This document shows, piece by piece, positions 16,939 through 34,369 of a DNA stretch of 49,494 nt. The notes under the pieces were generated by a model, which made no database searches, had not been told where the DNA came from, and saw nothing but the letters and a program-made list of their open reading frames with translations. The position numbers were made by a program, and so were the translations under genes. This stretch comes from Deltaproteobacteria bacterium (lineage in GTDB: Bacteria > Desulfobacterota > Desulfobulbia > Desulfobulbales > Desulfurivibrionaceae), in NCBI GenBank assembly GCA_026388735.1, contig JAPLJG010000095.1, positions 1 to 49,494 of the forward strand, written 5' to 3'. Every line of letters begins with the position of its first letter. The first letter of the stretch is position 1.

Positions 16939-17349
16939 TTACGCCTTCTCGTCAAAAAGCAGGCCGGTCAATTCCTGGAGCTTTACCTGAAGCGCGAGAG
17001 CATCTTCCGAAGGAAACTGCCTTACCAGCTTGCCGCTCTTGCTGTCAGTGATCTGCACCACGACCTCGTTTGGTTTTTCAAGCACCCGAAAATTCAGCTT
17101 GGTATTGCCCAGAGAATCGAGACGCTGCTGCATCTCCTCCACCGCCTTGGCAAGTTCCTTGGCGTCGACAGGCTTCGGCTGCGCCTGTACCTTGGGATGC
17201 AGCTCTTTTTCTCCCAATGCAGACTGGGATGACTCACCGCCCTTGGCCACCGGAGCGATCTGGGATTTCACCCGATCTTCCCTTGCCACGGCGGGCGTCA
17301 CCGTTGTTACGCCAACTCCTTTGATCTCGGTATTTACGCTGGCATCCAT
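16939..17349 (-). CDS. flaG: FlaG family flagellar protein
   Basis: 136 residues: a Ser/Lys/Val-rich disordered N-terminal half, then the FlaG domain (about 62-136) with AVEEMQQRLDSLGNTKLNFRV, ITDSKSGKLVRQFPSEDAL and a C-terminal LTGLLFDEKA. FlaG proteins affect filament length or assembly near FliD; the mechanism is poorly known. It is the last gene of the fliD-fliS-chaperone-flaG set, 32 bp after the chaperone gene. GGGAGG lies upstream of the ATG. Confidence 0.87.
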   Translation of the reverse strand: MDASVNTEIKGVGVTTVTPAVAREDRVKSQIAPVAKGGESSQSALGEKELHPKVQAQPKPVDAKELAKAVEEMQQRLDSLGNTKLNFRVLEKPNEVVVQITDSKSGKLVRQFPSEDALALQVKLQELTGLLFDEKA

Positions 17350-17381: not shown

Positions 17382-17810
17382 CTACAGTTTGTTGCTGAGA
17401 TAGCTAGGCCGGGGAACCAGGCCCTTGTTAATATTGTACCCCTGCAAGACCTCTTTTCCCTTGCGCATTGCCAGGAGCTGTTCCTGCACTTCCAACTGCC
17501 GGGCCATGATGAGCTTTTGCAGCACATCCTCCTTAGCCAACAGTTCTTCCATAATTTTCTGAGCCCGGACGATACACTCCTTATTATCTTCCCCACAAGC
17601 AACTACTCTCTCAAGTGTCTGCGCAAGACTCTTGAAGGCCATCTCCCTGCTCTGCTGCCAAGGCAAAAGGTCGTTACAGTTTTCGGCGAGAAGCGCGGCC
17701 TGATGCTCCTGCTGCATGGCGGCAAAATCATCCGCCGCCCGGATAAAATCCTCGGACAGGCTATGAGCAAGCACATCACCCATTATTTCGGTCGAAGCCG
17801 AGATCTTCAT
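17382..17810 (-). CDS. FliT/FlgN-like flagellar export chaperone (probable)
   Basis: 142 residues, almost all helical and Gln/Glu/Leu-rich, with the C-terminal LLAMRKGKEVLQGYN segment seen in FlgN/FliT-type chaperones of many Proteobacteria. Position between fliS and flaG supports a role in guarding FliD or another export substrate. There is no signal peptide or membrane segment. Similarity in this class is weak, so the assignment rests on length, helix pattern, the Gly-Tyr tail and context. Confidence 0.65.
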   Translation of the reverse strand: MKISASTEIMGDVLAHSLSEDFIRAADDFAAMQQEHQAALLAENCNDLLPWQQSREMAFKSLAQTLERVVACGEDNKECIVRAQKIMEELLAKEDVLQKLIMARQLEVQEQLLAMRKGKEVLQGYNINKGLVPRPSYLSNKL

Positions 17811-17836: not shown

Positions 17837-18376
17837 TTAAATGGAAACAGAGAGTCCGCCCATCGCCATATGGGGCTGACAGTCCTCATATTCTGCCCGT
17901 TTTTTTCCACGAGGGGCAGCAGCACTCACCGGGCTCACCGCTGGAGGCCCATCCTCGATGCACGCCTCTACGGTTTTTACAGAAATCAGCTCTGCGCCCG
18001 ACTCCCGCATGGCAGTTTCCTCCCAGATTCTCTTGAGTCGTTCCAGATAGGTGCGGGCCTGACGCAGCATCTTTACATCCTGGGTCACCGAGACCCTGGG
18101 AAGTTCCACTAGGATTGCCCCATACAACCCACGCAAAAACTGGGCAGCCTCGGAATGGTCCTCGGACTTGATGGAGGCTTGCAGCTCGGTGATAATGGCA
18201 ATGGCCTTACCCAGATTCTCCCCGCGTTTCTTGGGGGTCTGTTCCCGGATTCCTTCCTCGGCGAGCTCGAGATGCACCAGCACCCTTTCATACAACATAT
18301 GGATCAGCTTCACCGGCTGAATCTCCGCCTGCTTTTCTGTTGTCCGATAGGCATCCAGCACTTTTTGCCCCACCAT
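17837..18376 (-). CDS. fliS: Flagellin export chaperone FliS
   Basis: 179 residues. The first about 125 residues match FliS: an AYRTTEKQAEIQPVKLIHMLYERVL helix and a LRGLYGAILVELPRV segment. The C-terminal about 50 residues are a non-conserved extension. FliS binds the flagellin C-terminus in the cytosol and prevents early polymerisation. I choose the ATG at 18376 rather than the GTG at 18382 because GAGGAGG would be too close to the latter. It is 52 bp after fliD and is the likely partner for the giant flagellin. Confidence 0.92.
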   Translation of the reverse strand: MVGQKVLDAYRTTEKQAEIQPVKLIHMLYERVLVHLELAEEGIREQTPKKRGENLGKAIAIITELQASIKSEDHSEAAQFLRGLYGAILVELPRVSVTQDVKMLRQARTYLERLKRIWEETAMRESGAELISVKTVEACIEDGPPAVSPVSAAAPRGKKRAEYEDCQPHMAMGGLSVSI

Positions 18377-18428
18377 GTGCACTTCCTCCTCATCAGGCTG
18401 AAATTGTTACAGAACTACCCCGGTTTCC

Positions 18429-19820
18429 CTAGTTGCTTGAACTTCCAGACTGCGTGCCATTCAGGCTGTTAAACTGTCCGGTCAGATAGGTGCCCATTGA
18501 CTTCATCTGGCTCATGTACTGATCCAGGGCAACGAACTGCTTGGTCAACATGTCATAGCGCTTGTCGAGCCGCGCCGTCATGTCTTCAATCTGCAATTGC
18601 ATATCATCGATTCTGGTCTGGGCTGCAGTCTTCTCCGCCTTGATCTGCCCGGTGTCGCTGGTCACCTCCCGGAGATAATTATTGACCTTGTCCCCTAGCC
18701 CGGTGATCCCCGCCGCACTGTCCCCAAGAAACAAAGCGGAAACACTGTCCGGCGAAGCCGAGATGGCGGCAGATAATTTTGTCGTGTCGATGGAGATGGT
18801 CCCGTCCCGATTAAACGCCATGCCCAGATCGAACATGTTGGTGACCAGACCTTTGCTGTCCGCCTTCACTTGCGAAGTCATCAGATTCTCAAGGGCATAC
18901 GGCAAATCCCGCAGGGTGCTTCTCGCCAGGATGCCAAAATCCTTGGTGTCATTATTGTACGCGGTGTTTTTGGAAACCTCCTGCACTGCGTCGTTATACG
19001 CCGCCACAAAATCCACGACTTTTTTTGTGACGGCATCATTGTTATTGGCCACCGAAACCGTGGAAATCCCCGCACCCTGCAGGTTCAGGGTGACCCCAGA
19101 AAGCACATCGTTTATGGCGTTGCCCTGGCGCTGGTAGCTCACGCCGTCAATGGTGACCTGGGCGTTGAGGTTCACCCCGGTCTGCCCCTGCACAGACATG
19201 GCAAGGTCCGGCAGCTGGGCTGTCATCTGGGTGATTTCCTGGTTACTGCCGGTCGCCTTCGTTTGCAGCACCAGCTTGTACGGAGTCACTGCGGAACCAT
19301 CATTGATCAGCGAAGCAGTAACCCCGGGATTGTCCGTATCATTGTTGACCAGATCCACAAGCCCGCTCAAAGTGGTACCATTAGCCACCGCCACGGTGAT
19401 GTCCGTCCCACCCACCCGGTAACTAAAGTTCTGGCTGCTGCCGGTGGTGTTAACGCTGGTGGTGGCAGCGGCCTTGCCAGCCGACATCCAGATGCTCTTG
19501 GTGGCCAGCCGGTTCACCGTGACCGACGTGCTCTGGGCGGCGGTGCCGTCGGCCACAGTGGCGGTGAACACGCTGGGGCTGGAACTGGTCACGGTCCTGG
19601 ATAAAAAAGTGGTGGAGAGGGAAAGATCAAGGGCGCTGCTCTTCATGGTCAACAGCTTGTTGTTGACCACAGTGAACTCGTCCATCTGGGACTTGGTGGT
19701 GGCGATCGTATTCTTCTTGGTGGTGATGACCTGATCATCCACAGCACGCAACTTATCAAGCATGCCGTTCAGGTCAAGCCCGGAGCCAACACCAAGTGAT
19801 GAAATTGTGCCTGTTGCCAT
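18429..19820 (-). CDS. fliD: Flagellar filament cap protein FliD (HAP2)
   Basis: 463 residues with a FliD N-terminal domain (TISSLGVGSGLDLNGMLDKL, residues 4-23), a middle domain rich in Ser/Thr/Val, a flagellin-IN-like segment (VTIDGVSYQRQGNAINDV), and the FliD C-terminal helices (QLQIEDMTARLDKRYDMLTK). FliD caps the filament and guides insertion of flagellin subunits. A sigma-28-like promoter lies about 60 bp upstream. It heads fliD-fliS-chaperone-flaG. Confidence 0.96.
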   Translation of the reverse strand: MATGTISSLGVGSGLDLNGMLDKLRAVDDQVITTKKNTIATTKSQMDEFTVVNNKLLTMKSSALDLSLSTTFLSRTVTSSSPSVFTATVADGTAAQSTSVTVNRLATKSIWMSAGKAAATTSVNTTGSSQNFSYRVGGTDITVAVANGTTLSGLVDLVNNDTDNPGVTASLINDGSAVTPYKLVLQTKATGSNQEITQMTAQLPDLAMSVQGQTGVNLNAQVTIDGVSYQRQGNAINDVLSGVTLNLQGAGISTVSVANNNDAVTKKVVDFVAAYNDAVQEVSKNTAYNNDTKDFGILARSTLRDLPYALENLMTSQVKADSKGLVTNMFDLGMAFNRDGTISIDTTKLSAAISASPDSVSALFLGDSAAGITGLGDKVNNYLREVTSDTGQIKAEKTAAQTRIDDMQLQIEDMTARLDKRYDMLTKQFVALDQYMSQMKSMGTYLTGQFNSLNGTQSGSSSN

Positions 19821-20503: not shown

Positions 20504-23401
20504 TTAGCCCTGCAGCAGGCTCAGAACAGTCTTGGAGCTTGCATTGGCCTGGGCCATAGCAAAAGAGCCGGCCTGGTTGAGGATCTGCATCTTGGAGAAG
20601 TTTGCAGCTTCCTCGGCAAAGTCAACGTCACGGATGCTGGATTCAGCAGACGCGATATTAACCTTGGTGGCGCTCAGGTTGGCAATAGTGGAGGTCAGCT
20701 GGTTCTGCACAGAACCGAGGTCAGACCGCACCTTATCCAGATCCTTCAGAGCGGAGTCGGCAACCGAGATCCCTACCTGAGCCCCTGCCTGGGTCAAAAC
20801 ATTGACCTCGGAAAGACGGGTCATGCTGGAGGTGCCAACCGTGCCGATAGCAGAACCGCTACCAGAGGTATTGGCGGCCAGGATGGTCCCGGCATCCAAT
20901 ACCGAACCGCCCTTCACATCCTGGGCATTGGTCATGGTGGTGTCGCCGGCCAAGGTAACAGCCAGATCCAACGTGTCCCCGGCAGCATGAGTAGTACCAT
21001 CGGTGCCGGTGATGGAGTTGGTCAACACGGTACCCTGAGCAAAGACACTACCCGCCTTCACCACAGAAGTAGCCGCCAGATTCATGGTGGAACCTGTGGC
21101 AACGGTTTCCGCCTGCCTCAAGGTGATACTCACCCCGAAATTGGAACCAGTGGACAGGGCCGAGTTGGCCGCCATACGGGAACCGATCGCCAAGGTCTGG
21201 GTCCTGCTGATGGCTGCGTTAGCAGACAGGGTCAGATCATTGGAGTAGGACACCGAACCATTGCCCAACGTGGAGTCAGCGGCAACTACAGTACCGGACA
21301 GCACGGTCATGGCAGCAGTCAGGGTAGCATCGCTATTCAAGATGATAGCATCATCCGAAGCCACCGATTGGGACGCCAAAGTAGAGCCTACGGCGACAAC
21401 GGAGCCTCCGGTTAACGTCATACTTGCGGTCAGGACAGCATCCCGTGACAAACCGATCGCATCGGCCACGGCCAACGATCCAGCGGCCACAATCGACCCG
21501 CTCTGCACTAGGGCAGTCGCCGCCATACTCATGGACCCACCTGTGACACTGTAGGCATTGGTAGACCCCATTTGAGCATTGTCGATGTGGCTGCCAGCGG
21601 TAAAGGTAGCGCCAGTAATCAAAGAAGAGGTCGCGGCCAGGTTGAGGGTGTCAGATGTCAAGGTATAGCCGGCAGTAAGCCCCGTACCAGCTGCGGTAAC
21701 AATACCAGAGGCGTCGAAGGTAAGCCCATTTTGTCCTGAAACAGCAATTGCGTCAGCAATTGACAATTTTGAGCCAACAGCAAAGATAGTGGCTGTTATC
21801 AATTGTGTTCCAGCCGTAAGCGTACCGCCAGCAGCACCGACAGTGATGGTACCAGAGGTGACCAGGGAGCCACCGGTCAAAACAGTGCCGGAGGACAACG
21901 TACTATGAGCGGCAAGGATTGAACCACTACCCAAGGTCAAAGCACCGGTGGTGGTAAGACCGGACGTCATGACCGATGTAGTAATGGCGGTATTGGCAGC
22001 CAGAGTTGTCCCAGAGCTCAGGATGGAATTGGTAGCCGCAACCAGGGTTTTAGCTGCGGTGACGGTGGTCGCGCCAATCGCCACACTCGAGGTGATGGAG
22101 GTGCCGGAGGCAAGCGACGTGGTGGCCTTCAGAGTAGAGCCAGCGCCAAGGACCGTTGCCGAAGCCGTGGAGGTTGTAAAAGTCGCAACCTGCATGGCAT
22201 TGGTGATGGCCGTGCCGGAGTTGAGCACCGAACCACTGGCCAGGGTGGAACCCGCAGCAAGGGAAGTGACCGCAGTGGTGACGGCGGTCAAGGCATTCAG
22301 CTCCATCGGATTCACCGTGGCCACTGCCAGGCCGGCAGTGCCGGCGTTAGACACCTGAACCTCGGCGGAACCGGTCTGGGTCAGGTTGATCACGCCCAGG
22401 GTGTTCATATCGGTTTGACCGAAAACCTTGTTGGTTCCGGCATTGGTACCATTCGTGATGCTGGTGCCCGTAACTTGAATGGCACGGCCATCGTTGGAGG
22501 TCAGGGTCAGTTTACCGGCCGCATCCACACTGGCAAAAACGCCATGCTCGGAGTACTTGCCGTTGATGGCCTTAACCAAGGAGCCGTCACTATCATTGGC
22601 CGCAACATTAACCTGACCGATGGCGATTCCGTTAATCTTAAAATCAGCATCAGTGGTTCCGGCAGCGACAGCCGCGCCAGTGGTTGTTTTCACCACGGCT
22701 TGTGCCGAAACCCCCAATACGTCACTCAGCTTGTTGATGGCGTCAGCCACCGCGCCCAGGCTGTTCTCGCGCTTATTATTGTTCTGGATGTCAATGCTGT
22801 TGAGGTTATAGGTTTGGTTTTGCAGGTTGCTGTACAAGGACAGCTGTGCCGTGCCGGTTCCACCAAAGGACAACTGCGAGGACGTAACATGCCCGACTTT
22901 GGTTGACTCTGCAGAGGCGATGGAGATACTTACCGTTTCCTGCGAGTAAGCACCAATCTGGAACTTTTTGTTGGTAAAATTGCCGGACAGCAGCTTCTGG
23001 CCGTTGAAGGCCGTGGTCTTTGCAATAGCATCAAGCTCTTCCAAGAGCTTGGTGATATCTGACTGAATGGCCTTTCTGGAGTCCGTGGTCTGCCCGTCCT
23101 GAGCAGCCTGGATGGACTTGGTCTTGATGGTGTTGACGATCTTGATGGATTCGTCCAAGGCGCCATCTGCGGTCTGCACCATGGAGATACCATCGTTGGC
23201 GTTTCTGACCGCCTGACCAAGGCCAAGGGATTGGGATTTCAGCGAGTCGGCGATAGACATACCCGACGCATCATCCGCCGCCCGATTGATACGCAGACCG
23301 GAAGACAATTTTTCCAGGGATGACGACAGATTGTTGTCGTTTCTGATCATATTGTTGTGCGCGGTCAATGCTGCAATATTGGTGTTAATTCTTAATGACA
23401 T
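20504..23401 (-). CDS. fliC: Giant flagellin with repeat-filled central domain
   Basis: 965 residues, about twice the usual size. The N-terminal D0/D1 region (1-170; MSLRINTNIAALTAHN, KLSSGLRINRAADDASGM) and C-terminal D1/D0 region (last about 90; SSIRDVDFAEEAANFSKMQI, ending LSLLQG) are canonical. A flagellin-IN-like segment (ADFKINGIAIGQV) lies near 255. Residues about 370-880 are low-complexity Ala/Ser/Thr/Gly/Val repeats of the type GSTLxxxTxLxSGTxI, suggesting a beta-solenoid surface domain. The many Ser/Thr are candidate sites for the pseudaminic acid made by the adjacent genes. AGGAGG precedes the ATG, and a sigma-28 promoter lies about 195 bp upstream. Confidence 0.95.
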   Translation of the reverse strand: MSLRINTNIAALTAHNNMIRNDNNLSSSLEKLSSGLRINRAADDASGMSIADSLKSQSLGLGQAVRNANDGISMVQTADGALDESIKIVNTIKTKSIQAAQDGQTTDSRKAIQSDITKLLEELDAIAKTTAFNGQKLLSGNFTNKKFQIGAYSQETVSISIASAESTKVGHVTSSQLSFGGTGTAQLSLYSNLQNQTYNLNSIDIQNNNKRENSLGAVADAINKLSDVLGVSAQAVVKTTTGAAVAAGTTDADFKINGIAIGQVNVAANDSDGSLVKAINGKYSEHGVFASVDAAGKLTLTSNDGRAIQVTGTSITNGTNAGTNKVFGQTDMNTLGVINLTQTGSAEVQVSNAGTAGLAVATVNPMELNALTAVTTAVTSLAAGSTLASGSVLNSGTAITNAMQVATFTTSTASATVLGAGSTLKATTSLASGTSITSSVAIGATTVTAAKTLVAATNSILSSGTTLAANTAITTSVMTSGLTTTGALTLGSGSILAAHSTLSSGTVLTGGSLVTSGTITVGAAGGTLTAGTQLITATIFAVGSKLSIADAIAVSGQNGLTFDASGIVTAAGTGLTAGYTLTSDTLNLAATSSLITGATFTAGSHIDNAQMGSTNAYSVTGGSMSMAATALVQSGSIVAAGSLAVADAIGLSRDAVLTASMTLTGGSVVAVGSTLASQSVASDDAIILNSDATLTAAMTVLSGTVVAADSTLGNGSVSYSNDLTLSANAAISRTQTLAIGSRMAANSALSTGSNFGVSITLRQAETVATGSTMNLAATSVVKAGSVFAQGTVLTNSITGTDGTTHAAGDTLDLAVTLAGDTTMTNAQDVKGGSVLDAGTILAANTSGSGSAIGTVGTSSMTRLSEVNVLTQAGAQVGISVADSALKDLDKVRSDLGSVQNQLTSTIANLSATKVNIASAESSIRDVDFAEEAANFSKMQILNQAGSFAMAQANASSKTVLSLLQG
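20890..22290 (-). repeat. Short-period coding repeats in the flagellin central domain
   Basis: Codons here encode repeated short units such as GSTLASGSVL, GTTLAANTAI and GSILAAHSTL with periods near 10-15 residues; the copies are degenerate at the DNA level. Borders are approximate. Confidence 0.8.
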
Positions 23402-23597: not shown

Positions 23598-23624
23598 GTA
23601 TCGGCGACTGCAGAAAAAGCTTAA
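23598..23624 (-). promoter_or_regulatory. Sigma-28 (FliA)-like promoter of the flagellin gene
   Basis: Minus-strand TTAAGCTT (23617-23624), exact 11-bp spacer, GCCGATAC (23598-23605). This is close to the TAAAGTTT-N11-GCCGATAA consensus. It leaves a leader of about 190 bases before the start codon. Confidence 0.8.
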
Positions 23625-23641: not shown

Positions 23642-23684
23642 ACAAAAAAAAAGGGCGACAGAGCTGAAATATCTTCCGCCCTTA
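23642..23684 (-). terminator. Terminator after the Maf-like gene
   Basis: AAGGGCG...CGCCCTT hairpin overlapping the Maf-gene stop codon, with a 10-base T run on the minus strand. It separates the glycosylation genes from the sigma-28 flagellin promoter. Confidence 0.8.
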
Positions 23685-26492
23685 TGACGACCCCACGGCC
23701 AGATAACAATCAGCGATCTTCCGGAGTAACCCCACTTCCTCTGGCAAAGCCTGGAAACACTTCTCATAGGCCAGGGCCGCATCCGCAGGCTGGCCAGCAG
23801 TCAGCAGGGTGTCCCCGATATCTTCCCAATATTTCGCATAACTACGATCCAAAGCGACGGCCCGGTCAAGGGCGGAAAGCCCGGCGGGATAATCATCCAT
23901 GGCAAAAGCAGCATCAGCCAGGAGGAGACAGAGTTGCGGATTCTTTGGGGTGAGGGCAAGGGCGAGGGTAAAAGCCTGCGCAGCTTCGCTGAATGCCTCC
24001 TGGGTGAGCAGGGCACTGCCGTGCAGACGATGGAGGATGGCGACCTGTTCCGGCCCAAGAATTTTGCCCAGGTTGAGGTTTGCCGTTAATTCCATACTCC
24101 AGGCGGCCAAGATATCGGCCAGATCCACCGAGGTGGTCTCCTGCCCTGCAACGGTTTCGTCCTTGGCCATTACCAGGGCCACTTCAGCGGCGAGGGTCTG
24201 CCGCAACGCCTGATGATCCGTGGTGTAACGGGCAGCCTTAAATAGCATGCGCAAAGCGACCACCTGGTCGTTCCGCTGCCACTCATGGTAAAAGCCAAGA
24301 TATTGAGTGGCAAGGCGCTCACGGCATTCGGCAATACGCTCAGTCCAAGAAGGATCAATATCCTCAATCCTGGCAAAATAGCGTTCCATTACCGCAAACT
24401 GGCATCGGTGGGCAGCGATGACGCCAAGATACAAGGAAAGTTCCGCCGATTGGGCAGGCTCAGGGCAATGAGCCGCGATGGTCTTCTCCAGCAGCACATG
24501 ATCGCCGTTTTCAAAATAGAGCCGCAGCAGTTCCAGCACAGTTTCCCTGTCGTCGCCCTTTTGCTTGGCGAGTTTCTTGAGCAAAAAATCCTCCCGCTGG
24601 AGATGGCTGTGCAGATGTTTCAAGCGTTGGGCAAACGGGGCTAACACCTGCCGACGAAACTGGCTGATCACGACAAAGCGGTTGATTGCTCTGCCCAACC
24701 ATTCGAGATACTGCTCGGACTGATCGGCAAGCTGCTTGATCTCATGATTCAGGCGCTCACTCTGACGCAATCCTTCCATGGTGACTTCGTCCAGCAAGGC
24801 CCAGACTTTAGCCTTATCCAGCTTGGCGTTCAAGGCATCCACCTCCAGGAGTTGCCGTTGCAGGGCCACGGGAAGTGTCTCAAATTTCTGATAGCTTGTG
24901 CCCTGCTCCTGCAACTTGCTGATCTCCTTGCTAAGCTTTGCAGCCAGCACATCTAGGCTGGCCATGTCCTTTTCGACCCCGGCAATGGCTTTGGTCATGC
25001 GGGCAAATTCGTCGATCATTTGGCGCCGACCGGGCATTCTGGCATGGTCCTCCGCCTCACGGATCATGGCCGCGACATCCATCTCCCGTCGGCAATGACG
25101 GCTAAGCACCTCCTGCAATGGCAGTTCTTCTGTCCCTTCCAGACGCACTCCGCCCTCGGTGGCGTTGATGAATTGCCGGTCCTTAATCCCCGCCATAGCC
25201 TGTTCGAAATGATGTTTGAAGCCGAGATAGGCCCGATAGGTCGGGACCTTGCCGCCACCATAGCCATCGACCCAGAGGATTTCTTCCCTGGCCAAAAGAC
25301 CTTTCAGCTCGTCCTTGCTCGTCAGCGAGGTATGCTTGGCATGGCTCTCCTGCTCGACGAAGGCCAGGTCCTGGCCGACAAAAATAATGGGCGAACAGCC
25401 CAGCAAGTATGCGGCAATAAAATTCAGTTGAGCAACGGTACCGGCCCCGGTGGTGAGAACCTTCCCATCCAGGAGATTATTGAGCCACGTTTCCATGTTT
25501 TTGGCGGTGAAAGACCAGTACACCTGCCGAGCCGGGAAATTTTTTGCCACCGTGGGCGCCAGCCAGGAGGAACAGACCAGGGAGGTTTCACCGGCATCAA
25601 CAGCAACATCGATGATTTTTTCCAGGGTAATATCCTGCATGTCGATACAGGAGGTGAAATCCGGGGTCACTCCATGGGCCAGCAGCGCTGGCAGCACGGT
25701 ATCCGCAGCGATGATCACCGCCCTGCCCTTGGCTTGGGAAAGCAGATGAATATTCTTATTCAGCGAGGGGCCGCCTGCCACGATGATGGCCGGGATACCG
25801 ACAAAGGCATCCTTGAGATGTTCGAGCAACTGCTGATGGTGAATGGCGCTCAGGTGTCGAAGTCGGTTGTCGATAAATTTATCGCCGTACGCTGAAGTGG
25901 TATTGCCGCCGACATTATAGGCATTGCCATGCTTGTATATCTCATCGTGCATGCTGGTATAGATTTCCGGGGCAATCCGGAAACAGGGATTATGCTGGAG
26001 AATATAAAGGCTCTCCAACTGCAATGCGCGGGACATGGAAGCCAGGAGGGCGGGCACATTGATATCCTGGCCAGTAGCGATGGTCACTCGGTAATCGGTG
26101 AGGAGGCTGGATAGGTCCAAGGCATGTAGAGCTTGAATGAAAAGCCCAGTTTCCGGCTCCAATATCAGCAAATGACGGAGTTGATTGCGGCTTGCCAGCA
26201 TAGCTGGCGGGGCATAGCCCAGGCCCATGCCGACGAATACCACCACGCCGGTGACGTTTTCCGGCACCAGATTGTAATACTCGGCCAATTCAGAAAGAGG
26301 CGCCTTTGGCTCATGGAGAAAGATTTCCTCCCCATCTTCTTTACGGACCAGTAAATTAGGATTGCCGTCTTCGGCGGGCTGAAGCTCACCCAACGGTTCA
26401 CCGGCATAATCGAGCACCGCCTGCCAAACCAGCGGATGATGCTCCTGTAGCAGAGCCAGATTTTCCTGAAAATAATCGTGAGCTAGCACCAT
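23682..26492 (-). CDS. Maf-type flagellin glycosyltransferase (DUF115) with C-terminal TPR
   Basis: 936 residues. The N-terminal part (GVVVFVGMGLGYAPPAML) and the central DUF115/6-HMPK-like domain (about 210-400: IPAIIVAGGPSLNKNI, IIAADTVLPALLAHGVTPDF, FVGQDLAF) mark it as a motility-associated factor. Maf proteins transfer nonulosonic acids such as pseudaminic acid to flagellin Ser/Thr in the cytosol before export. The C-terminal about 300 residues are helical with TPR-like units (ALALTPKNPQLCLLLADAAF), perhaps for flagellin binding. Position between the pse operon and the flagellin gene supports this. AGGA lies about 10 bases before the ATG at 26492. Confidence 0.9.
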   Translation of the reverse strand: MVLAHDYFQENLALLQEHHPLVWQAVLDYAGEPLGELQPAEDGNPNLLVRKEDGEEIFLHEPKAPLSELAEYYNLVPENVTGVVVFVGMGLGYAPPAMLASRNQLRHLLILEPETGLFIQALHALDLSSLLTDYRVTIATGQDINVPALLASMSRALQLESLYILQHNPCFRIAPEIYTSMHDEIYKHGNAYNVGGNTTSAYGDKFIDNRLRHLSAIHHQQLLEHLKDAFVGIPAIIVAGGPSLNKNIHLLSQAKGRAVIIAADTVLPALLAHGVTPDFTSCIDMQDITLEKIIDVAVDAGETSLVCSSWLAPTVAKNFPARQVYWSFTAKNMETWLNNLLDGKVLTTGAGTVAQLNFIAAYLLGCSPIIFVGQDLAFVEQESHAKHTSLTSKDELKGLLAREEILWVDGYGGGKVPTYRAYLGFKHHFEQAMAGIKDRQFINATEGGVRLEGTEELPLQEVLSRHCRREMDVAAMIREAEDHARMPGRRQMIDEFARMTKAIAGVEKDMASLDVLAAKLSKEISKLQEQGTSYQKFETLPVALQRQLLEVDALNAKLDKAKVWALLDEVTMEGLRQSERLNHEIKQLADQSEQYLEWLGRAINRFVVISQFRRQVLAPFAQRLKHLHSHLQREDFLLKKLAKQKGDDRETVLELLRLYFENGDHVLLEKTIAAHCPEPAQSAELSLYLGVIAAHRCQFAVMERYFARIEDIDPSWTERIAECRERLATQYLGFYHEWQRNDQVVALRMLFKAARYTTDHQALRQTLAAEVALVMAKDETVAGQETTSVDLADILAAWSMELTANLNLGKILGPEQVAILHRLHGSALLTQEAFSEAAQAFTLALALTPKNPQLCLLLADAAFAMDDYPAGLSALDRAVALDRSYAKYWEDIGDTLLTAGQPADAALAYEKCFQALPEEVGLLRKIADCYLAVGSS

Positions 26493-26564: not shown

Positions 26565-27200
26565 TCATTTTTCAAACAACCACCAGTTGAGATCATCAAA
26601 GATCTTAAATTCCCGCTGCCAAAGGAAACCGTAATCGACAATCTTCAGGGTCGGGTGACGATCCAGATAGAATGAACCGAAATCTCTTTTGAATAGAAGC
26701 CCATCCTGGCCATGGTAGGACTTTTCCTCTGGAGTAGTAGAAAAGTATTCGCTACAGAGAATGTATTTTTTTGAAACCCGAACGATCTCGTCCGTGATAC
26801 GGACTAAGTCGTCAGGGGCGATGTGGATCAAGACGCCATTGGTCAAGACAAGATCAACAGAGGCATCCGGCAAGGGGAGATGAAATCCGTCACAATTCCA
26901 TGCTTGAGCCAAGTTAATCTTGTTGGCCATGAGTCGGCCATAGGCCTTCTTGTTCGGCTCCACAGCGTGCAGTTTGACCTTGCCGTTGAACAGGGTGTCG
27001 ATGAAGACAAGATTGAGACCGATATTGCTCCCCACCTCCAAAATCGAATCCAGCTTAAGATCGCCGATCATCCGGCGAAAGGCTTCAACCCCGGGAGCAA
27101 GTTTCCATTCCTCAAACTCGTTGCGCTCCACATAGTCGTTGCCGAATTGTGAGCCCCATTCCTGTAACTGTTTTGTCGGTTTTTTGATATCTTGCACCAT
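26565..27200 (-). CDS. Pseudaminic acid biosynthesis-associated methylase
   Basis: 211 residues, class I SAM methyltransferase. The N-terminal QLQEWGSQFGNDYVERN matches the W-x-x-x-FG-x-x-Y-x-x-RN signature of methylases found in pseudaminic acid clusters. The SAM motif is ILEVGSNIGLNL (near 56), and LTNGVLIHI is motif IV-like. The substrate is probably a nonulosonic acid or its precursor; this is from family and context. The true start is the ATG at 27200 (GAGGAC upstream), not the longer frame to 27419, which overlaps the neighbour and is Trp/Cys-rich. Confidence 0.85.
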   Translation of the reverse strand: MVQDIKKPTKQLQEWGSQFGNDYVERNEFEEWKLAPGVEAFRRMIGDLKLDSILEVGSNIGLNLVFIDTLFNGKVKLHAVEPNKKAYGRLMANKINLAQAWNCDGFHLPLPDASVDLVLTNGVLIHIAPDDLVRITDEIVRVSKKYILCSEYFSTTPEEKSYHGQDGLLFKRDFGSFYLDRHPTLKIVDYGFLWQREFKIFDDLNWWLFEK

Positions 27201-27270
27201 AATGTCCTCAATTTTTTCAAACCACATTGAATGATCCGGCAACCAGCAACAACAACTCAAACAGAAGCAG

Positions 27271-28311
27271 TTATGGCTGATCCTGTTTCCGGGCCACAAG
27301 CCACATATGGGAAGAGAGCTGGTGCTCCGCCAGAAATTGCTGGAAATCACCGCCCAATCGCTCCCACTCATCCACCAGAACACGCTGTAGAAAAGGCTGA
27401 CCGGAAACGTTGTACTCATCTTTTACAATGGCATCATGGACAAACTCGGCATCAAGCCTTCCCGGGGTATTCACCTCCAGCACTTCAAATCCACACGAGC
27501 GGACAAGCACTCCCAGTGAGGCCGGATTGAACAGATTAACATGCTCCGCGTCCACCGCCTTGGAACCTGGACCAAGAACGGCAACATCAAATCCCTCCCC
27601 GTTGGGGCAGGAGAGCACTAGCAGCCCTCCTGGCCGAAGCACCGCATACAGACTAGACAGAAGGCGGGAAGGTTCAAAGAGATGCTCAATCACCTCGAAA
27701 GCAACCACTACATCGGCATCGGCGACCTCATTGCATAAATCTTCAACCCTTTTTTCAAACACGACCATGCCGCGCCGCCGACAAGCCTCGGCCAGTTCAG
27801 GGGTAGGCTCTATCGCCACCACCCGCTTGAATACTTTCTGCTCAATGGCCAAGGAAGAAAAGGTGCCGAAGCCGGGACCGATCTCGACCATGGTACCCCG
27901 TTCTATGCAGTATTGATCACAATAAGCAACGACCCGCGCCAGCCAGGGTTTGTGGATCTTCTCCCGACGGATGTCTTCCGAGGCGGGGAAGATATGCTTA
28001 GCCCAATAAGCATAATTTTCGGAATTGCGATAATAGTCGGCCATCACCTCTTCCGATGGCCGGGGCGACATATAGAGTGTCGCGCAAGAACCACACCTGA
28101 GAAAAGTAAATCCATATTTTTCAAAAGCATTCTTCCTCAGCGCACTGCCGCAAGCCGGGCAATCCACCTCGACAAATTCAGCACTCCTCTGGTGCAACCG
28201 CTCCACATCACGAGCAAACGCCGCCTCCTGTTCCGAAAGCAACTCTGCCGGGCGGATCTCGTTCTCACGCAGACGCTCCGCTACTTTGTCATATCTTTTC
28301 GCCTCTGTCAT
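27271..28311 (-). CDS. SAM-dependent methyltransferase with N-terminal zinc ribbon
   Basis: 346 residues. A CPAC...CGSC zinc-ribbon (about 60-90) precedes a class I SAM-methyltransferase domain with MVEIGPGFGTFSSL (motif I) and VVVAFEVIEHLFEPSRLLSS. The architecture resembles sugar C- or O-methyltransferases from surface polysaccharide clusters. A role in trimming the flagellar sugar is inferred from the operon position. The start at 28311 is favoured by AGGGG 8 bases upstream; the gene then lies 5 bp after the stop of the amidotransferase fusion. Confidence 0.82.
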   Translation of the reverse strand: MTEAKRYDKVAERLRENEIRPAELLSEQEAAFARDVERLHQRSAEFVEVDCPACGSALRKNAFEKYGFTFLRCGSCATLYMSPRPSEEVMADYYRNSENYAYWAKHIFPASEDIRREKIHKPWLARVVAYCDQYCIERGTMVEIGPGFGTFSSLAIEQKVFKRVVAIEPTPELAEACRRRGMVVFEKRVEDLCNEVADADVVVAFEVIEHLFEPSRLLSSLYAVLRPGGLLVLSCPNGEGFDVAVLGPGSKAVDAEHVNLFNPASLGVLVRSCGFEVLEVNTPGRLDAEFVHDAIVKDEYNVSGQPFLQRVLVDEWERLGGDFQQFLAEHQLSSHMWLVARKQDQP

Positions 28312-28316
28312 ACCAG

Positions 28317-30425
28317 TCACCCCTTTTGCAATTCCTGACGCCGCCAGCGCCCGTTTTCCATGGTCCACACCCTGGGGTCGCGGAAGGTATCGGCAATGCG
28401 GTCAAATTCATCTTCCGTCATGCCGACATACTGCAACCAACGCTGGAGATCTTTCGGCTTCACCGGATCATAACGGTTGACCAGCTCAATCGCCTGGTCA
28501 CGGCTCAGCAGGCCGGCCCGAATGTCCTTGCAGGCGTGGTCGGTGCAACGCCCATAACCGAATTTGATATACTTCAAATAGTCATGCGCGCCGTTTTCGT
28601 GCATGTCGTCCAGATTGGACATGGTGCGGTAGGTACGATCAAAGGGTTCATTGCTTACTTCAAAACCGTAACGATCAACCACCAACTTGATATGTTCGTT
28701 CGCTTCCCAACGCACATAATTCCCCAGGAATATCCCCCGCAGACCCAGATCAAAAATCTGCTGGTCGGTCGGGTACTTCCAAGGCATGAAATCCTGTTCA
28801 GTCAATCCTTCCCGACCGACGAAGTAAGTCCATTCGTACCCCCGCCCATAATGTTCAAGACGGTTCCGATAGGCAACCTCGGGGAAATCGTCCATTGAAA
28901 ATTGCCCACACAGGTCCAGGTAGCCATGTTCGCCATAAAAAACCAAGGGGACCCCATACTGAACACCCACCCGCATCGGGGTAGTCATAATCCCGATATG
29001 AGCATGCCAGTTCATATCGCCCATGACAATAAAGCCAAGCCGGTTCAGTTTTTTCAGGACATTAACGGATGGCGAGACCAGCAGGTGATCGACGTCAAAG
29101 GCCTCCTTCATGTGCAGCATGTTGCGCCAGCCGACCTCGGTCCAGTTGTTACCGTTGTATGTCACTAGCAACGGATTCAGTTTCAGCTCGTTTTTGATGA
29201 TATGGGTCTGAAAATAACTGTCTTTGCCGCCGCTGACGGCAATCACGCAATCATAGCGAGAACCGTCCCGACAACGGTAGCGCTCAGCCATCTCCTTGAG
29301 CACTTCCCAACGACGGGTCCATTCGGTTTCGGGAATGTGCTGCTTCACCTCTGCCATCCGGCAGCCGGAGCAGATGCCTTGCTCGTCAAATTCCATGGGC
29401 GCGGCACTGATTCCCGGATACACACATTTGCTGCACCACCGCACTTCCTGTTTTTTTGCCTGCGCCGCCGAATGAGTCCCCGAATAATCCGATACTTCAG
29501 CACAACGCAAGCGTGACTGAATACGGGCATCCTCTCTTGTCTGGTTATATACTGGCTCACGGGGCAAAAAACGGGATCCGAGTCCAATTGGCCGCAGGGG
29601 CAAGCCAACATCCAGACAAGCCTGCTTGGCATGGGAATAGCTCAGTTCAAAAAAATGGAAAATATTGGCGGCAGCCATGGCTGAAGCATGACCCTGTTGG
29701 ATGGCTGCCGGGAAATGCTCATATCGACCGACACCGCCAAGCGCCACCACGGGAATAGAAACGGCCGCACTGACCGCACCAATCAATTCCACATCGTAGC
29801 CTAAACCAGAACCGTCCCGATCTATCGAATTCAACAAAATTTCCCCGGCCCCCAGACGCTCCACCTCCCGTGCCCACTCCTCCGGTTTGCGGCCTGTTCG
29901 CATCCGTCCCCCGTCGCCCCAAACCTCATACTCTTTTGCTTGGCGACGCACATCTATGGATACAACAATACACTGGCTTCCAAATCGCCGAGATGCCTGA
30001 GTAATAAAATCAGGGTTCTGTAGGGCTGCTGTATTCAAGGTGACTTTATCGGCTCCCGCTGCCAGCCGCACGGAGATGTCATCCAGCGTTCGGATACGAC
30101 CGCCGAAGGTCAACGGCATGAAACAGACCTCAGTGATGGCGCGCAGAACATCCAACGCCGATTTGCCCATATAGTTTTGCTGAAGATCGTCACGGCGCAG
30201 ATCGTGAAAGTCCTCATCTCGGCTAATGTCGAGGACGACCAGCTCATCAACATTCCAGTCGGAAAACCTTTCCACGGTACTCATGGGATTACCGATAGCC
30301 TGATGAACCTTGAAAAGCTGGCTCCGCATAATAAGACCATGCTTCAACAGGAGACATGGAATAAGTCGAGGGCGGACGCCTTCTGATCGAAGAACACCCT
30401 CGTTTGCGGCATAATTAGCTGGCAT
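28317..30425 (-). CDS. HisF2-like cyclase fused to WbpG/PseA-like N-acetyl sugar amidotransferase
   Basis: 702 residues, two enzymes in one chain. Residues 1-265 are a HisF paralogue ([12 protein letters not shown]; the HisF Asp11 position is Leu, SIDVRR is kept), typical of HisF2 proteins of LPS clusters rather than histidine synthesis. Residues about 325-702 are an N-acetyl sugar amidotransferase with a Cys zinc site (CSKCVYPG...CSGC) and a PP-loop ([12 protein letters not shown]). In relatives HisH2/HisF2 make ammonia for WbpG, which turns an acetamido group into acetamidino. The fusion would channel ammonia directly. The start codon overlaps hisH by 11 bp; AAGGAA lies upstream. Confidence 0.9.
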
Positions 30426-31050
30426 GACAAGATTCCTTTTTCACATACGTCACGAATGCTTCAAGAACACCAAGCCCGGCATCCTGACTTTTTTCCGGAT
30501 GGAACTGGACCCCGAAAATATTCCCTCGTTCTACCGCAACAGTGACTGGTTCATGACCAAAGTCAATAACAGCGACAGAATTTTCCCGATTATTGCAAAG
30601 GAAATGGTAGCTGTGGACAAAATAGAAGGCAGTTCCTGCGGTAATATCGCAAAAAATACTTGAGTCTCCTGCTGGATAGACATCACACCAACCGATATTG
30701 GGAACCCGTTCTCCAGATTTTGGCGCAAGCCGTACAACACGACCAGGAATCAGTCCCAAGCCTTTATGGTTTCCGAACTCTTCACTCTCTTCAGCCAGTA
30801 ATTGCATCCCGAGACAGATGCCAAGAATCGGCTTACCCTTTGCCGCAGCGGAACGAATTGGCCCATCTAAACCCAGGCGCTGCAAACTCTCCATGCCGTC
30901 CGCAAAAGCACCCACCCCCGGTAGCACTAACCCTTCAGCGGAAGCAACGATATCGGGATCATCAGAAATAGTTACCGCTTCCCCAAGATGTCGAAAAGCA
31001 GCGACCACCGACCCCAAGTTTGCTATTTTACTGTCAATAATGACAATCAT
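30415..31050 (-). CDS. hisH2: HisH2-like glutamine amidotransferase
   Basis: 211 residues, class I glutaminase of the HisH family: GICLGMQLL carries the catalytic Cys, and VQFHPEKSQ carries the His and Glu. It would release ammonia from glutamine and pass it to the HisF2 partner encoded next, whose start it overlaps. Placed in a sugar cluster without other his genes, it should serve the sugar amidotransferase and not histidine synthesis. GGAGG lies upstream of the ATG at 31050. Confidence 0.9.
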   Translation of the reverse strand: MIVIIDSKIANLGSVVAAFRHLGEAVTISDDPDIVASAEGLVLPGVGAFADGMESLQRLGLDGPIRSAAAKGKPILGICLGMQLLAEESEEFGNHKGLGLIPGRVVRLAPKSGERVPNIGWCDVYPAGDSSIFCDITAGTAFYFVHSYHFLCNNRENSVAVIDFGHEPVTVAVERGNIFGVQFHPEKSQDAGLGVLEAFVTYVKKESCHAS

Positions 31051-31093: not shown

Positions 31094-31801
31094 TCAGCTC
31101 TCGTCAATTCTTCCTTGCAGACGCAAAGCTGCGAACATCGCTTCCGCCGTCAGCCAGTCTTCCATGGTATCGATATCCTGCACCAGTCGGCGAGGCAACA
31201 CCACCGGCCGCGCGTCGGACGCGTATATCCTCTTCTCCTGCCGGAAGCGGGCAACCTCGAGCCAATAGAACTGGCCGGCGTCATGGTACGCCTCGGGCAG
31301 GTCGTTGGAGCGAGTCAGCTCGTGTTCAGGCCATAACATGGTCAGCCTACCGTCCGGGTCGATGGTTAGAGCGCGGAATGGCGAGGCCGGGTAACTGGCA
31401 ACCGGAAACACCGAGGCTGCTCCGGTCTGGCGCAACAATTCGTACCCCTGACACAAAAAACTGGACCGGACAAAGGGAGCTGTGGCATAGAGACAGCAAA
31501 CCAACTCCGGCTTCTGCCCCTGACCATCCAGCCACTCCAGGGCATGGAGCACCACATCCGCAGTGGGGGTGAAGTCATCGGCCAGTCCGGCCGGTCGGAT
31601 AAAAGGAGTCTCCGCCCCGTACTTCCTTGCCACTGTGGCAATCTCTTCCGAATCGGTGGAGACGATGATTCTGGAAAAAAGACCCGAGGATTCGGCAGCC
31701 TGGATGGACCAAGCAATCATCGGCTGACCTGCAAATGACCTAATGTTTTTTCCCGGAATTCGCTTGCTGCCACCTCGGGCCGGGATAATCGCAATATTCA
31801 T
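31094..31801 (-). CDS. pseF: Pseudaminate cytidylyltransferase PseF
   Basis: 235 residues of the CMP-sugar nucleotidyltransferase family: IAIIPARGGSKRIPGKNI at the N-terminus (the CTP-binding loop), then STDSEEIATVARKYGAE and the ADDFTPTADVV segment. PseF activates pseudaminic acid as CMP-Pse. The start codon overlaps the pseI stop (ATGA), and GGAGG is 7 bases upstream. The choice of pseudaminate over sialate or legionaminate follows from pseBCGHI next to it. Confidence 0.93.
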   Translation of the reverse strand: MNIAIIPARGGSKRIPGKNIRSFAGQPMIAWSIQAAESSGLFSRIIVSTDSEEIATVARKYGAETPFIRPAGLADDFTPTADVVLHALEWLDGQGQKPELVCCLYATAPFVRSSFLCQGYELLRQTGAASVFPVASYPASPFRALTIDPDGRLTMLWPEHELTRSNDLPEAYHDAGQFYWLEVARFRQEKRIYASDARPVVLPRRLVQDIDTMEDWLTAEAMFAALRLQGRIDES

Positions 31802-32853
31802 GGTAAACCTCCGACCATCTCCCAGCCGAGCGGCGTTCCTCTGCGGATGGCCCGACTTGACCGCCGGCCGAGCACTTGCCCCAGATACTTGGGCGCCAGT
31901 CCGTAACCGGGCCGGATGGAGCGGATGTTCTCCGAGGTCAGAACCTCACCGGCCAGGACGTCTTCCACCACGAACAGCGACCGCCGAAAGGCTCTGCTCT
32001 TCTCTTCAGCAGCGGACGACTCATAACAGACTCGGCCCAGGGCCTGCTCGGTCTCGCGCACCGCCGCCACCATGGCAGCGAACTCATGCGGCTCCAAAGA
32101 AAAGGCGCTGTCCGGGCCACCGGCCGCCCGGCCCAAAGTGAAATGCTTCTCGATGATCGCCGCCCCAAGCGCCACCGCAGCCACCGGCGCGGCAAGCCCG
32201 GTGGTGTGATCGGACAGCCCGGCCACTACCCCGAAGGTCTCGGCCAGATGGGGTATGGTGCATAGGTTCATGTCCGCCGCCTGCGCCGGATAGGCACTGG
32301 TGCACTTAAGCAGTCCAATTCCGCCTGCCCCGGCACGCCGCAGGGTGGCTACCGCCTCATCGATTTCGGCTAGACTGGCCATGCCGGTAGACATAATCAC
32401 CGGTTTTCCCGTAGCCCCGATTCGTTCCAGCAGTGCCAGATCCACCAGCTCAAAAGAAGCGACCTTGTGAGCCGGCACATCCATACCCTCCAGGAATTCC
32501 ACCGCCGTAACATCAAATGGGGTGGAGAAAAGGATAATCCCAAGCCGGTCGGCAATCTCCTTGAGTTGCGGCTGCCATTCCCAAGGAGTATAGGCCTCCC
32601 CGTAGAGATCGTAGAGGGGGCGGCCCTCCCAGATGGTCCCCTTGATCCGAAAATATTCGTTATCACAGGCAATGGTCAGGGTGTCCGGGGTATAGGTCTG
32701 GAGCTTCACCGCATCAGCGCCAGCCTCCTTAGCCGCCTCGATAATCCGTGCCGCCTGGTCGAAGTCCTGCCCGTGGTTGGCACTCATCTCGGCAATGATG
32801 TAAACGGGATGACCCGATCCGATTACCCGATCGTTGATGGTGATCTCATTCAT
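31798..32853 (-). CDS. pseI: Pseudaminic acid synthase PseI
   Basis: 351 residues, NeuB family: a TIM-barrel domain (VYIIAEMSANHGQDFD, AVKLQTYTPDTLT, IIEKHFTLGR) and a C-terminal SAF antifreeze-like domain (about 290-350, RSLFVVEDVLAGEVLTSENI). It condenses a 2,4-diacetamido-trideoxy-altropyranose with PEP. The start at 32853 has AAAGGAA upstream and gives the normal N-terminus; the longer frame to 32937 lies within pseG/H. It overlaps pseG/H by 8 bp and pseF by 4 bp. Confidence 0.95.
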   Translation of the reverse strand: MNEITINDRVIGSGHPVYIIAEMSANHGQDFDQAARIIEAAKEAGADAVKLQTYTPDTLTIACDNEYFRIKGTIWEGRPLYDLYGEAYTPWEWQPQLKEIADRLGIILFSTPFDVTAVEFLEGMDVPAHKVASFELVDLALLERIGATGKPVIMSTGMASLAEIDEAVATLRRAGAGGIGLLKCTSAYPAQAADMNLCTIPHLAETFGVVAGLSDHTTGLAAPVAAVALGAAIIEKHFTLGRAAGGPDSAFSLEPHEFAAMVAAVRETEQALGRVCYESSAAEEKSRAFRRSLFVVEDVLAGEVLTSENIRSIRPGYGLAPKYLGQVLGRRSSRAIRRGTPLGWEMVGGLP

Positions 32854-34369
32854 GTTGATTCCTTTCCAACCCCAATAACACCGCCTGGACCCCGAACCGT
32901 TCTGTCTCGCCCGCCACGATGAACCCGGACTTGGCAAAAGATCTTAACGAGGCTTGGTTATCCGTCTTGACCAGTGCGGTAATCCGCCCAACCCCCTGTT
33001 CCTCCCGAAACAGTCGGGAGCAGGCCGAGCTAATCAATACGCTTCCCAACCCCTGTCCACGCAGGCCTGGGGACAGGTTCATCGAAATTTCCGCCATACC
33101 CTCGCCCAGATTAAAGCGCACTAGGCCCATCGGGGTACCATCCGAAAGTGTAGCCCGCCACAGACGGCAATCCTGGGCAGCGAGTTTCGCGACAAGCCAC
33201 TGTTCATGGCCCTCCGAGCTAATAGTCTCAGAGCGGAAAGAATTCTTCCGGGTCATAGGGTCGTTGGCCCATTGGAGCAACACATCTTTGTCCGACCAGC
33301 GGACCGGAGACAGTGTTAGCCCCCTTGCCAACAGAGCAATGACCACCCGACTGGCGCCACGGCCATCCACCAGCCCGCAACCCATTGCGGCCTGAGCCTG
33401 ACCTTGCACGCCATCGTGCAAAAATTCCCGTAACCGTCTGGCCAGCACATCCGAACCAAGGGCGTCATACCAACCCAGCACTATGGCCACCCCCTGGCGG
33501 GCAAGTTGGTTGGCGTTCTCCTCCTGGTTGCCCGCCGTGATCAGAGCCACAAACGGCGTCCCCACACAGGCCAGCTCATAGGTGGTGGTCCCGGCCGCAG
33601 TCACAGCAACATCCGCCCAATGCATCAGGGTGGCCATGTCAACCACGTCACGCGCCAGCTCGCACCGGAACGGCAACCCTGCCACCAGCTCAGCAAGTAC
33701 CCCGGCGTACGGATTGGCCGCCCCCACCACTGCCTTTACCTCTAAACCGTCGATACCGCTGGCCGCAAGGGCGGACAACACTCGGCCGGTCACGTTGTGT
33801 TGATCCGCTCCACCCATGGTGACCAGCACCCGCCTGGCTATCGGCGGCAAAAAACGCTCTTTGCCGCCGAACTTACAGAACTCCCGTCGCAACAGAGCGT
33901 AACACGGCCCCAACATCATGGTTGCCTCTGGAGGACAATTATAGGAAATATTGGGGGCATAGAGGTTCTGGTTGATTAGCGCATCGCAATGATAGTCAGC
34001 CAGTTGCCCCAGGTCGTCAATTGCCAGTAGCTGCCAACCGGCCTCCCGCATAGCCTGTTGGTAGACAGCGTCAAAATGGTAGCCGTCCAGCACCAGCCAG
34101 CCCAGGGGGGCATGCTGACACAATTGCTCCACCGCCAGCCGGTGCATGGAAACAAGATCTGCCGGGTCCGGGTAACGGCCTGCCAAATCAACCAAACCAG
34201 CCCCTTCCAATTCTATCCGTCGACGCAACGCTTCCGGCTCGATCCTGCCCGCAAAGAGCACCTCACCACCCCGGTCGCGCCAGACTTCGGCCAGTGCCAA
34301 GCAACGCATGACATGGCCGGTGCCCATAACGCCATCCGCATCGGCCCGGATCACCAGCCTGCCGATCAT
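32846..34369 (-). CDS. pseG: PseG-PseH fusion: UDP-sugar hydrolase plus N-acetyltransferase
   Basis: 507 residues. Residues 1-340 are PseG, a GT-B-like UDP-2,4-diacetamido-trideoxy-altropyranose hydrolase (RADADGVMGTGHVMRCLALA, LVTMGGADQHN, TAAGTTTYELACVG). Residues about 350-505 are a GNAT domain matching PseH (LSPVRWSDKDVLLQWANDP, LRGQGLGSVL). The order of reactions is PseC, PseH, PseG, so the chain couples two consecutive steps. The start overlaps the pseC stop by 4 bp. Confidence 0.92.
   Translation of the reverse strand: MIGRLVIRADADGVMGTGHVMRCLALAEVWRDRGGEVLFAGRIEPEALRRRIELEGAGLVDLAGRYPDPADLVSMHRLAVEQLCQHAPLGWLVLDGYHFDAVYQQAMREAGWQLLAIDDLGQLADYHCDALINQNLYAPNISYNCPPEATMMLGPCYALLRREFCKFGGKERFLPPIARRVLVTMGGADQHNVTGRVLSALAASGIDGLEVKAVVGAANPYAGVLAELVAGLPFRCELARDVVDMATLMHWADVAVTAAGTTTYELACVGTPFVALITAGNQEENANQLARQGVAIVLGWYDALGSDVLARRLREFLHDGVQGQAQAAMGCGLVDGRGASRVVIALLARGLTLSPVRWSDKDVLLQWANDPMTRKNSFRSETISSEGHEQWLVAKLAAQDCRLWRATLSDGTPMGLVRFNLGEGMAEISMNLSPGLRGQGLGSVLISSACSRLFREEQGVGRITALVKTDNQASLRSFAKSGFIVAGETERFGVQAVLLGLERNQHE

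Follow-up and report, generated by a model that had tools for sequence, protein, structure and literature searches.

The outer layer of the flagellar filament in a sulfate reducer of the Desulfobulbales very probably consists of hexapeptide-repeat solenoid rods of variable length, which are carried on the main flagellin and are probably glycosylated. The gene for this flagellin lies within the window, the 49,494-nucleotide stretch of DNA that was analyzed. The outer domains of flagellins vary enormously, and no fold is known for most of them. A class that is widespread in sediment bacteria that reduce sulfate or cycle sulfur, and that is built on a hexapeptide solenoid of the type found in enzymes, would offer a testable structural model with cultured strains and allows one to ask whether adding solenoid turns tunes filament thickness and stiffness.

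Domain organization of the flagellin

The flagellin and its parts are located as follows.
20504..23401, minus strand: large flagellin (FliC-type) coding sequence, 965 aa (open reading frame; Flagellin_N/C; PRK13588)
22973..23389, minus strand: D0/D1 N-terminal helical core, residues 5–143 (PF00669, Flagellin_N, 1.5e-46)
22367..22894, minus strand: D2-like region, residues ~170–345, common to the six-residue-repeat (hexad) class and without hexad periodicity
20867..22306, minus strand: predicted hexapeptide-repeat beta-solenoid outer domain, residues ~366–845 (period 6; profile matches of the left-handed beta-helix, or LbH, type; AlphaFold2 strands)
20867..21136, minus strand: conserved C-terminal solenoid end, residues ~756–845 (confident in AlphaFold2; diagnostic profile A4)
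20513..20767, minus strand: D1/D0 C-terminal helical core, residues 879–963 (PF00700, Flagellin_C, 7.9e-27)

The reading frame is intact and has both conserved ends, which the initial annotation had correctly described as normal. PF00669 and PF00700 each exceed their cut-offs at the two termini, as expected of a bacterial flagellin. The top NCBIfam model is PRK13588, flagellin B (2e-147), although its score of 492.3 falls slightly under the curated cut-off of 503 bits, and the nearest curated models belong to the FlaA/FlaB (flagellin A/B) group. Flagellin models reach 492 bits whereas FlgL models reach 68 bits, which identifies the protein as a flagellin and not as the hook-filament junction protein; FlgL is encoded separately in the same genome, on contig C20. 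Two further proteins of the genome carry Flagellin_N, a 299-aa open frame on C92 and an FlgL-like protein of 1236 aa on C20.

When the core was compared with solved structures by Foldseek, the Helicobacter pylori FlaB filament 9yh1 was the best match (E = 1.5e-19, 49% identity), and the full-length model recovered flagellin cores and nothing else. The FlaA/FlaB flagellins of Helicobacter and Campylobacter (PDB 9yh1, 9ygu, and 6x80) share a similar D0/D1 core and D2-like region, with 44–49% identity among the best Foldseek matches. However, their chains have 508–574 aa, whereas the present flagellin adds a hexad solenoid of ~480 residues. Residues 101–345 are 57–82% identical to those of 19 homologous flagellins. 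A conventional globular D2/D3 in place of repeats was not seen; the D2-like region is present and precedes the inserted hexad array.

Giant flagellins have been defined as those above 1000 aa (Thomson et al. 2018, PMC6248924), so that this protein, at 965 aa, is a large flagellin and not a giant one. The earlier description of a giant flagellin with about 500 residues of repeats thus holds for the array, which spans ~480–500 residues, but not for the size class. Relatives of this flagellin attain 1246, 1339, and at least 2007 aa. The giant flagellins of Bermanella and Oleibacter form polar filaments of at least 30 nm and likewise carry a large insert in the surface region, but that insert is made of duplicated DE domains and a DX insert, and no hexapeptide period was reported for it; in the same study, Desulfotalea psychrophila appears only as an example of size (PMC6248924). 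The flagellinolysins, or proteolytic flagellins, similarly accommodate a foreign fold in the hypervariable region, which in their case is a metalloprotease domain rather than a repeat rod (PMC7643111). In the same order, locus L058 (genome G034) encodes a 1158-aa flagellin without hexads and with five Flagellin_IN stretches, which represents a second route to giant size, independent of the first. Large and giant flagellins are thus already known, while an open-access literature search, outside which most subscription journals lie, returned no flagellin described with a hexapeptide, LbH, or beta-solenoid rod. For this rod type, we found no published description in that one collection, which is not proof of novelty.

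The outer domain repeats every six residues

The initial annotation had assigned the center degenerate repeats of 10–15 residues. Autocorrelation instead gave a period of 6, with echoes at 12, 18, and 36/37, and lags 10 and 15 were depleted, which excludes a repeat unit of 10–15 residues. For hydrophobic and aliphatic residues, the z scores were 8.3 at lag 6, 5.2 at lag 12, and 4.3 at lag 18, with negative values at lags 9–10 and 15–16, while residue identity recurred at lag 37 (z = 7.1). The windowed spectrum peaked at a period of 6.2 with a power of 5.95 (maximum of 60 shuffles, 2.6), and the center contains 29 consecutive hexad pairs, against 5.3 ± 2.3 (maximum 12) after shuffling. When 60 distinct related centers were pooled, the z scores rose to 44.5 at lag 6, 29.8 at lag 12, 20.8 at lag 36, and 17.5 at lag 37, with −11.8 at lag 10. 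The period runs through residues ~361–840 with a single dip near residues 529–550 and is not present in D1/D2.

The repeat unit is [LIVMF]-x-x-G-[ST]-x, with preferences for L/V/I/M/F, then G, then S/T/A. An aliphatic residue at i and a small residue at i+4 of a six-residue repeat are the hallmarks of LbH proteins, and on this pattern the unit is the hexapeptide repeat of that group, which in acyltransferases forms a stiff beta-helix rod of triangular cross-section. The superperiod of 36–37 residues is two turns of 18 residues.

No tandem array was found in the flagellin DNA (best TRF score, 39); the period is therefore a property of the protein sequence alone, not an artifact of assembly or slippage. 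The genome is a draft of 123 contigs, which leaves a vanishingly small chance that the long protein is a product of misassembly or of slippage in repeated DNA; the open frame with both conserved ends speaks against this reading, and the occurrence of a like architecture in dozens of independent genomes rules it out.

As initially described, the center is rich in Thr, Ala, Ser, and Gly (17.7, 17.2, 13.8, and 11.7%, respectively). Ser and Thr account for 161 of 497 residues, and charge is low (10 K/R and 19 D/E). This composition, together with poor AlphaFold2 confidence across much of the center, would also suit an unfolded, low-complexity Ser/Thr-rich stretch, disordered or mucin-like, that serves only as a glycan carrier. 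We regard this as improbable, given that the aliphatic period of 6 is maintained in 60 divergent centers and that shuffling abolishes the matches to hexapeptide families.

Fold of the outer domain

Sequence comparisons and models together indicate, with good confidence, that the outer domain is a hexapeptide-repeat beta-solenoid, in keeping with the beta-solenoid that had been predicted initially. Searched with phmmer against PDB sequences, the center of the 965-aa flagellin retrieved LbH proteins only, namely CAG1 (0.001), a hexapeptide transferase (0.22), and LpxA (0.85). A profile of 29 homologous centers matched 100 distinct PDB sequences at E ≤ 1, the best being GlmU (1.2e-8), followed by LpxD, LpxA, VioB, PglD, gamma-carbonic anhydrase, and eIF2B-epsilon; essentially all of the best 60 of the 100 were LbH proteins. 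In addition, Pfam Hexapep (PF00132) matched 16 of 20 homologs and exceeded its curated cut-off of 27 bits in L042 (40.3 bits), L048 (27.8 bits), and L117 (154.3 bits), the last being the best homolog with 13 stretches and an E value of 2e-46. Hexapep had zero matches in two composition-matched shuffles and in two flagellins without hexads. The center of the present protein itself stays below the Hexapep cut-off, and LbH_EIF2B alone matched it, at 0.0012 and also below cut-off, so its membership in the hexapeptide family rests on its homologs. The phmmer search, the 29-center profile, and the Hexapep matches in homologs jointly point to a hexapeptide beta-helix.

In both the full-length and the center models, AlphaFold2 placed strands of two residues throughout the domain, at intervals of about six residues. 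The conserved end at residues ~756–845 is confident, with pLDDT of 82–94 in the full model and 81–97 in the center model, and elsewhere the solenoid has pLDDT mostly of 40–75. By Foldseek, the center model had no significant match among solved structures (best, Ag43, E = 0.027), which gives too little confidence to name the handedness from the model, and handedness is not readable from the sequence. Right-handed beta-helices (Ag43, TibA, and the HK620 tailspike) are among its weak structural matches, as would be expected if the center were a right-handed or other triangular beta-solenoid of the bactofilin, Ag43, or tailspike kind, with the same function. However, the sequence profiles of the centers match LbH families but no right-handed families, most strands lie 6 residues apart, and the sole viral structural match below 1e-3 is an LpxD-like protein (3.4e-4), which makes such a fold unlikely. 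We infer, with moderate confidence, that the solenoid is left-handed.

The initial annotation had likened the repeats to adhesin or S-layer sequence, a likeness that sequence comparison did not support: among solved proteins, LbH acyltransferases and gamma-carbonic anhydrases are the closest in sequence, and Ag43 appears only at the E value given above. The self-associating autotransporters Ag43 and TibA also display an extracellular beta-solenoid, which in TibA is glycosylated, but they are right-handed and autotransporter-secreted, and their structural match to the present center is not significant.

The repeat [LIV]-x-x-[GN]-[STAV]-x of GlmU, LpxA, LpxD, PglD, and gamma-carbonic anhydrase (PF00132) resembles that of the present insert. 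Most LbH proteins are enzymes of the cytoplasm or of organelles that have fewer turns and possess catalytic residues; by comparison, the present insert is longer, apparently non-catalytic, and part of an exported filament protein. That LbH enzymes are its closest PDB sequence relatives, and that flagellins with a protease in the hypervariable region exist (PMC7643111), could suggest an acyltransferase- or carbonic anhydrase-like enzymatic solenoid. We consider this highly improbable: His makes up 0.6% of residues 350–880, and the near-invariant columns of A3 hold only Gly, Leu, Ser, Thr, Asn, and Val. A conserved catalytic or zinc-binding His was sought in A3 and not found, nor did A3 have a conserved Cys, Asp, or Glu. 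In the absence of a conserved His, the hexad solenoid is probably non-catalytic.

Promoter and neighboring genes

The surroundings of the flagellin gene contain the following features.
16939..17349, minus strand: FlaG (PF03646, 2.1e-20)
17837..18382, minus strand: FliS, flagellin export chaperone (PF02561, 2.9e-24)
18429..19820, minus strand: FliD, filament cap (PF07195, 2.3e-44; PF02465, 2.8e-15)
23598..23624, minus strand: sigma-28-like promoter, TTAAGCTT-N11-GCCGATAC (3 mismatches; mismatch-tolerant scan)
23682..26492, minus strand: Maf-type flagellin glycosyltransferase, PseD-like, MptE-like with TPR (NF050051, 2.8e-43, below cut-off; PF01973, 3.1e-36; PF20157, 3.8e-9)
26565..27419, minus strand: pseudaminic acid biosynthesis-associated methylase (TIGR03587, 1.9e-47, above cut-off)
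27271..28368, minus strand: methyltransferase (PF13489, 7.8e-19)
28317..30425, minus strand: HisF2/WbuZ-WbuX fusion, acetamidino sugar modification (TIGR03573, 6.5e-90; TIGR03572, 1.9e-77)
30415..31050, minus strand: HisH-like glutamine amidotransferase (TIGR01855, 1.9e-62)
31094..31801, minus strand: PseF, pseudaminic acid cytidylyltransferase (TIGR03584, 3.9e-94)
31798..32937, minus strand: PseI, pseudaminic acid synthase (TIGR03586, 2.9e-146)

A strict sigma-28 pattern search upstream of the flagellin gave no match; the site listed came from the tolerant scan, in which the best of 200 shuffles had 4 mismatches. A comparable site lies at about −180 to −245, at about equal distance, upstream of most related flagellin genes. 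Between the promoter and the upstream Maf gene, a hairpin followed by a T run occupies ~23644–23682.

FliD, FliS, and FlaG lie downstream of the flagellin; Maf is immediately upstream, and the pseudaminate and acetamidino genes lie beyond it, which agrees with the adjacency of Maf and Pse genes noted initially. A Maf gene beside the flagellin together with Pse biosynthesis genes is the genomic arrangement that marks a Maf/pseudaminate-glycosylated flagellin. Maf adjoins the flagellin in all five hexad-type relatives examined, against none of five non-hexad ones.

The 702-aa product of the fusion at 28317–30425 (minus strand) joins a HisF2/WbuZ-like domain to a WbuX-type N-acetyl sugar amidotransferase, and G014 also has a single long match to it. 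Between FlaG and FliS, a 142-aa reading frame (17382–17810, minus strand) has no Pfam or NCBIfam match; it was found in four hexad-type relatives examined (60–64%) but not in five non-hexad ones. It is possibly a FliT-like chaperone.

Model of the filament surface

The protein would be the main filament flagellin of this Desulfobulbales sulfate reducer. Its helical D0/D1 core would polymerize like Campylobacterota FlaA/FlaB, with the D2-like region next, and a beta-solenoid of ~480 residues, or ~26 turns of ~18 residues, would be inserted in the surface-exposed part. LbH helices rise by ~0.48 nm per turn, and a straight rod would measure ~12–13 nm per subunit. Rods on every subunit could pack into an outer layer that makes the filament thicker and stiffer. 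The thick filament and the glycosylated sheath put forward in the initial annotation are predictions of this same kind. Ser and Thr residues of the rod are probable acceptors of pseudaminate-type sugars, which the neighboring genes would make and Maf would transfer.

In a straight solenoid, ~12 nm would separate the two termini of the insert, and D1/D2 needs them close together. Because the insert has to leave and rejoin D1/D2 at neighboring points, the topology does not readily accommodate a straight rod, and a hinge or return strand is needed. The dip in periodicity near residues 529–550 could be such a hinge.

Distribution of the hexad class

Seven genomes of the same genus, the present one included, encode hexad flagellins (788 to 1246 aa). 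The initial annotation had treated ordinary flagellins in related strains as contrary to its reading. They do occur, in eight species of the genus (492–598 aa, no hexads; the comparison is between species, not strains), but they belong to other flagellin lineages, which indicates gene replacement and not an absence of repeats here. A D0/D1 tree divides them into two such lineages and needs only two changes for the hexad class. FliD of non-hexad relatives is ~43% identical at most, versus 57–76% in hexad-type ones, and FliS is likewise much more distant. Together with the missing Maf neighbor, this suggests an exchange of the flagellin cassette rather than in situ loss of the solenoid. A cassette swap between hexad and non-hexad species, in whichever direction, is one reading of these sequences.

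A pattern scan that covered 84,980 species genomes returned 78 loci, and every complete gene with both ends had hexads. These came from Desulfobulbaceae/Desulfurivibrio, Desulfobacteraceae, Desulfosudis, and Campylobacterota (Sulfurospirillum, Sulfurimonas, and Sulfuricurvum), with lengths mostly of ~800–1340 aa. Cultured species with hexad-class flagellins include Desulfospira joergensenii DSM 10085 (1121- and 1339-aa forms), Desulfobacter latus (1247 aa), and Desulfurivibrio sp. AMeS2 (about 1195 aa). Overall, members of the class are found in many Desulfobulbales and Desulfobacterales and in some Campylobacterota, and their lengths range from 785 to more than 2000 aa. With profile A4, the conserved solenoid end, as the diagnostic, 118 genomes sampled evenly across the phylum yielded a complete solenoid end with Flagellin_C in two besides the present genome; the class is thus patchy. 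In Desulfobacula, L117:4650-10670 encodes a flagellin whose length is at least 2007 aa and in which near-perfect LGSGTT-type hexads extend over several hundred residues.

Divergence and length of the rods

In the nearest core relative, L044, the core is 94% identical and the center 43%, and the length differs by 144 residues; across 28 pairs with cores above 90%, median center identity was 44%. The surface rod thus changes much faster than the core, and in the proposed model rod sequence and length would diverge fast while the core stays conserved. Fast-changing hypervariable regions are general among flagellins (PMC7018530).

In 32 related genomes, the open-frame length of FlgL followed flagellin length (Spearman 0.80, kinship ignored), with a median of 1004 beside large flagellins versus 663 beside small ones and with G002, G005, G028, and G032 as exceptions. 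The FlgL insert was examined for hexads and had none.

On a more speculative level, the number of turns may be an evolvable ruler for filament thickness in the hexad-class flagellins of Desulfobulbales, Desulfobacterales, and some Campylobacterota. Under this tentative proposal, a nearly constant core would bear rods of anywhere between ~340 and more than 1500 residues, FlgL would enlarge in step, and the exposed rod would outpace the core by far in diversification, a pattern expected from phage or surface selection.

A separate idea, that rods change in length by entire turns of 18 residues, was not supported across 764 gaps of ≥12 residues in related pairs: 158 of the 764 lay near multiples of a turn, about the number that we estimate for an even spread. 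Against the nearest relative alone, the gaps were 18, 18, 18, and 37.

Two adjacent hexad flagellins occur in L090, L100, L124, L132, L134, L141, and L052. The paired cores are 99% identical in L100 and 97% in L090, with centers 68 and 60% identical, respectively; near-identical cores with diverged centers suggest diversification after duplication.
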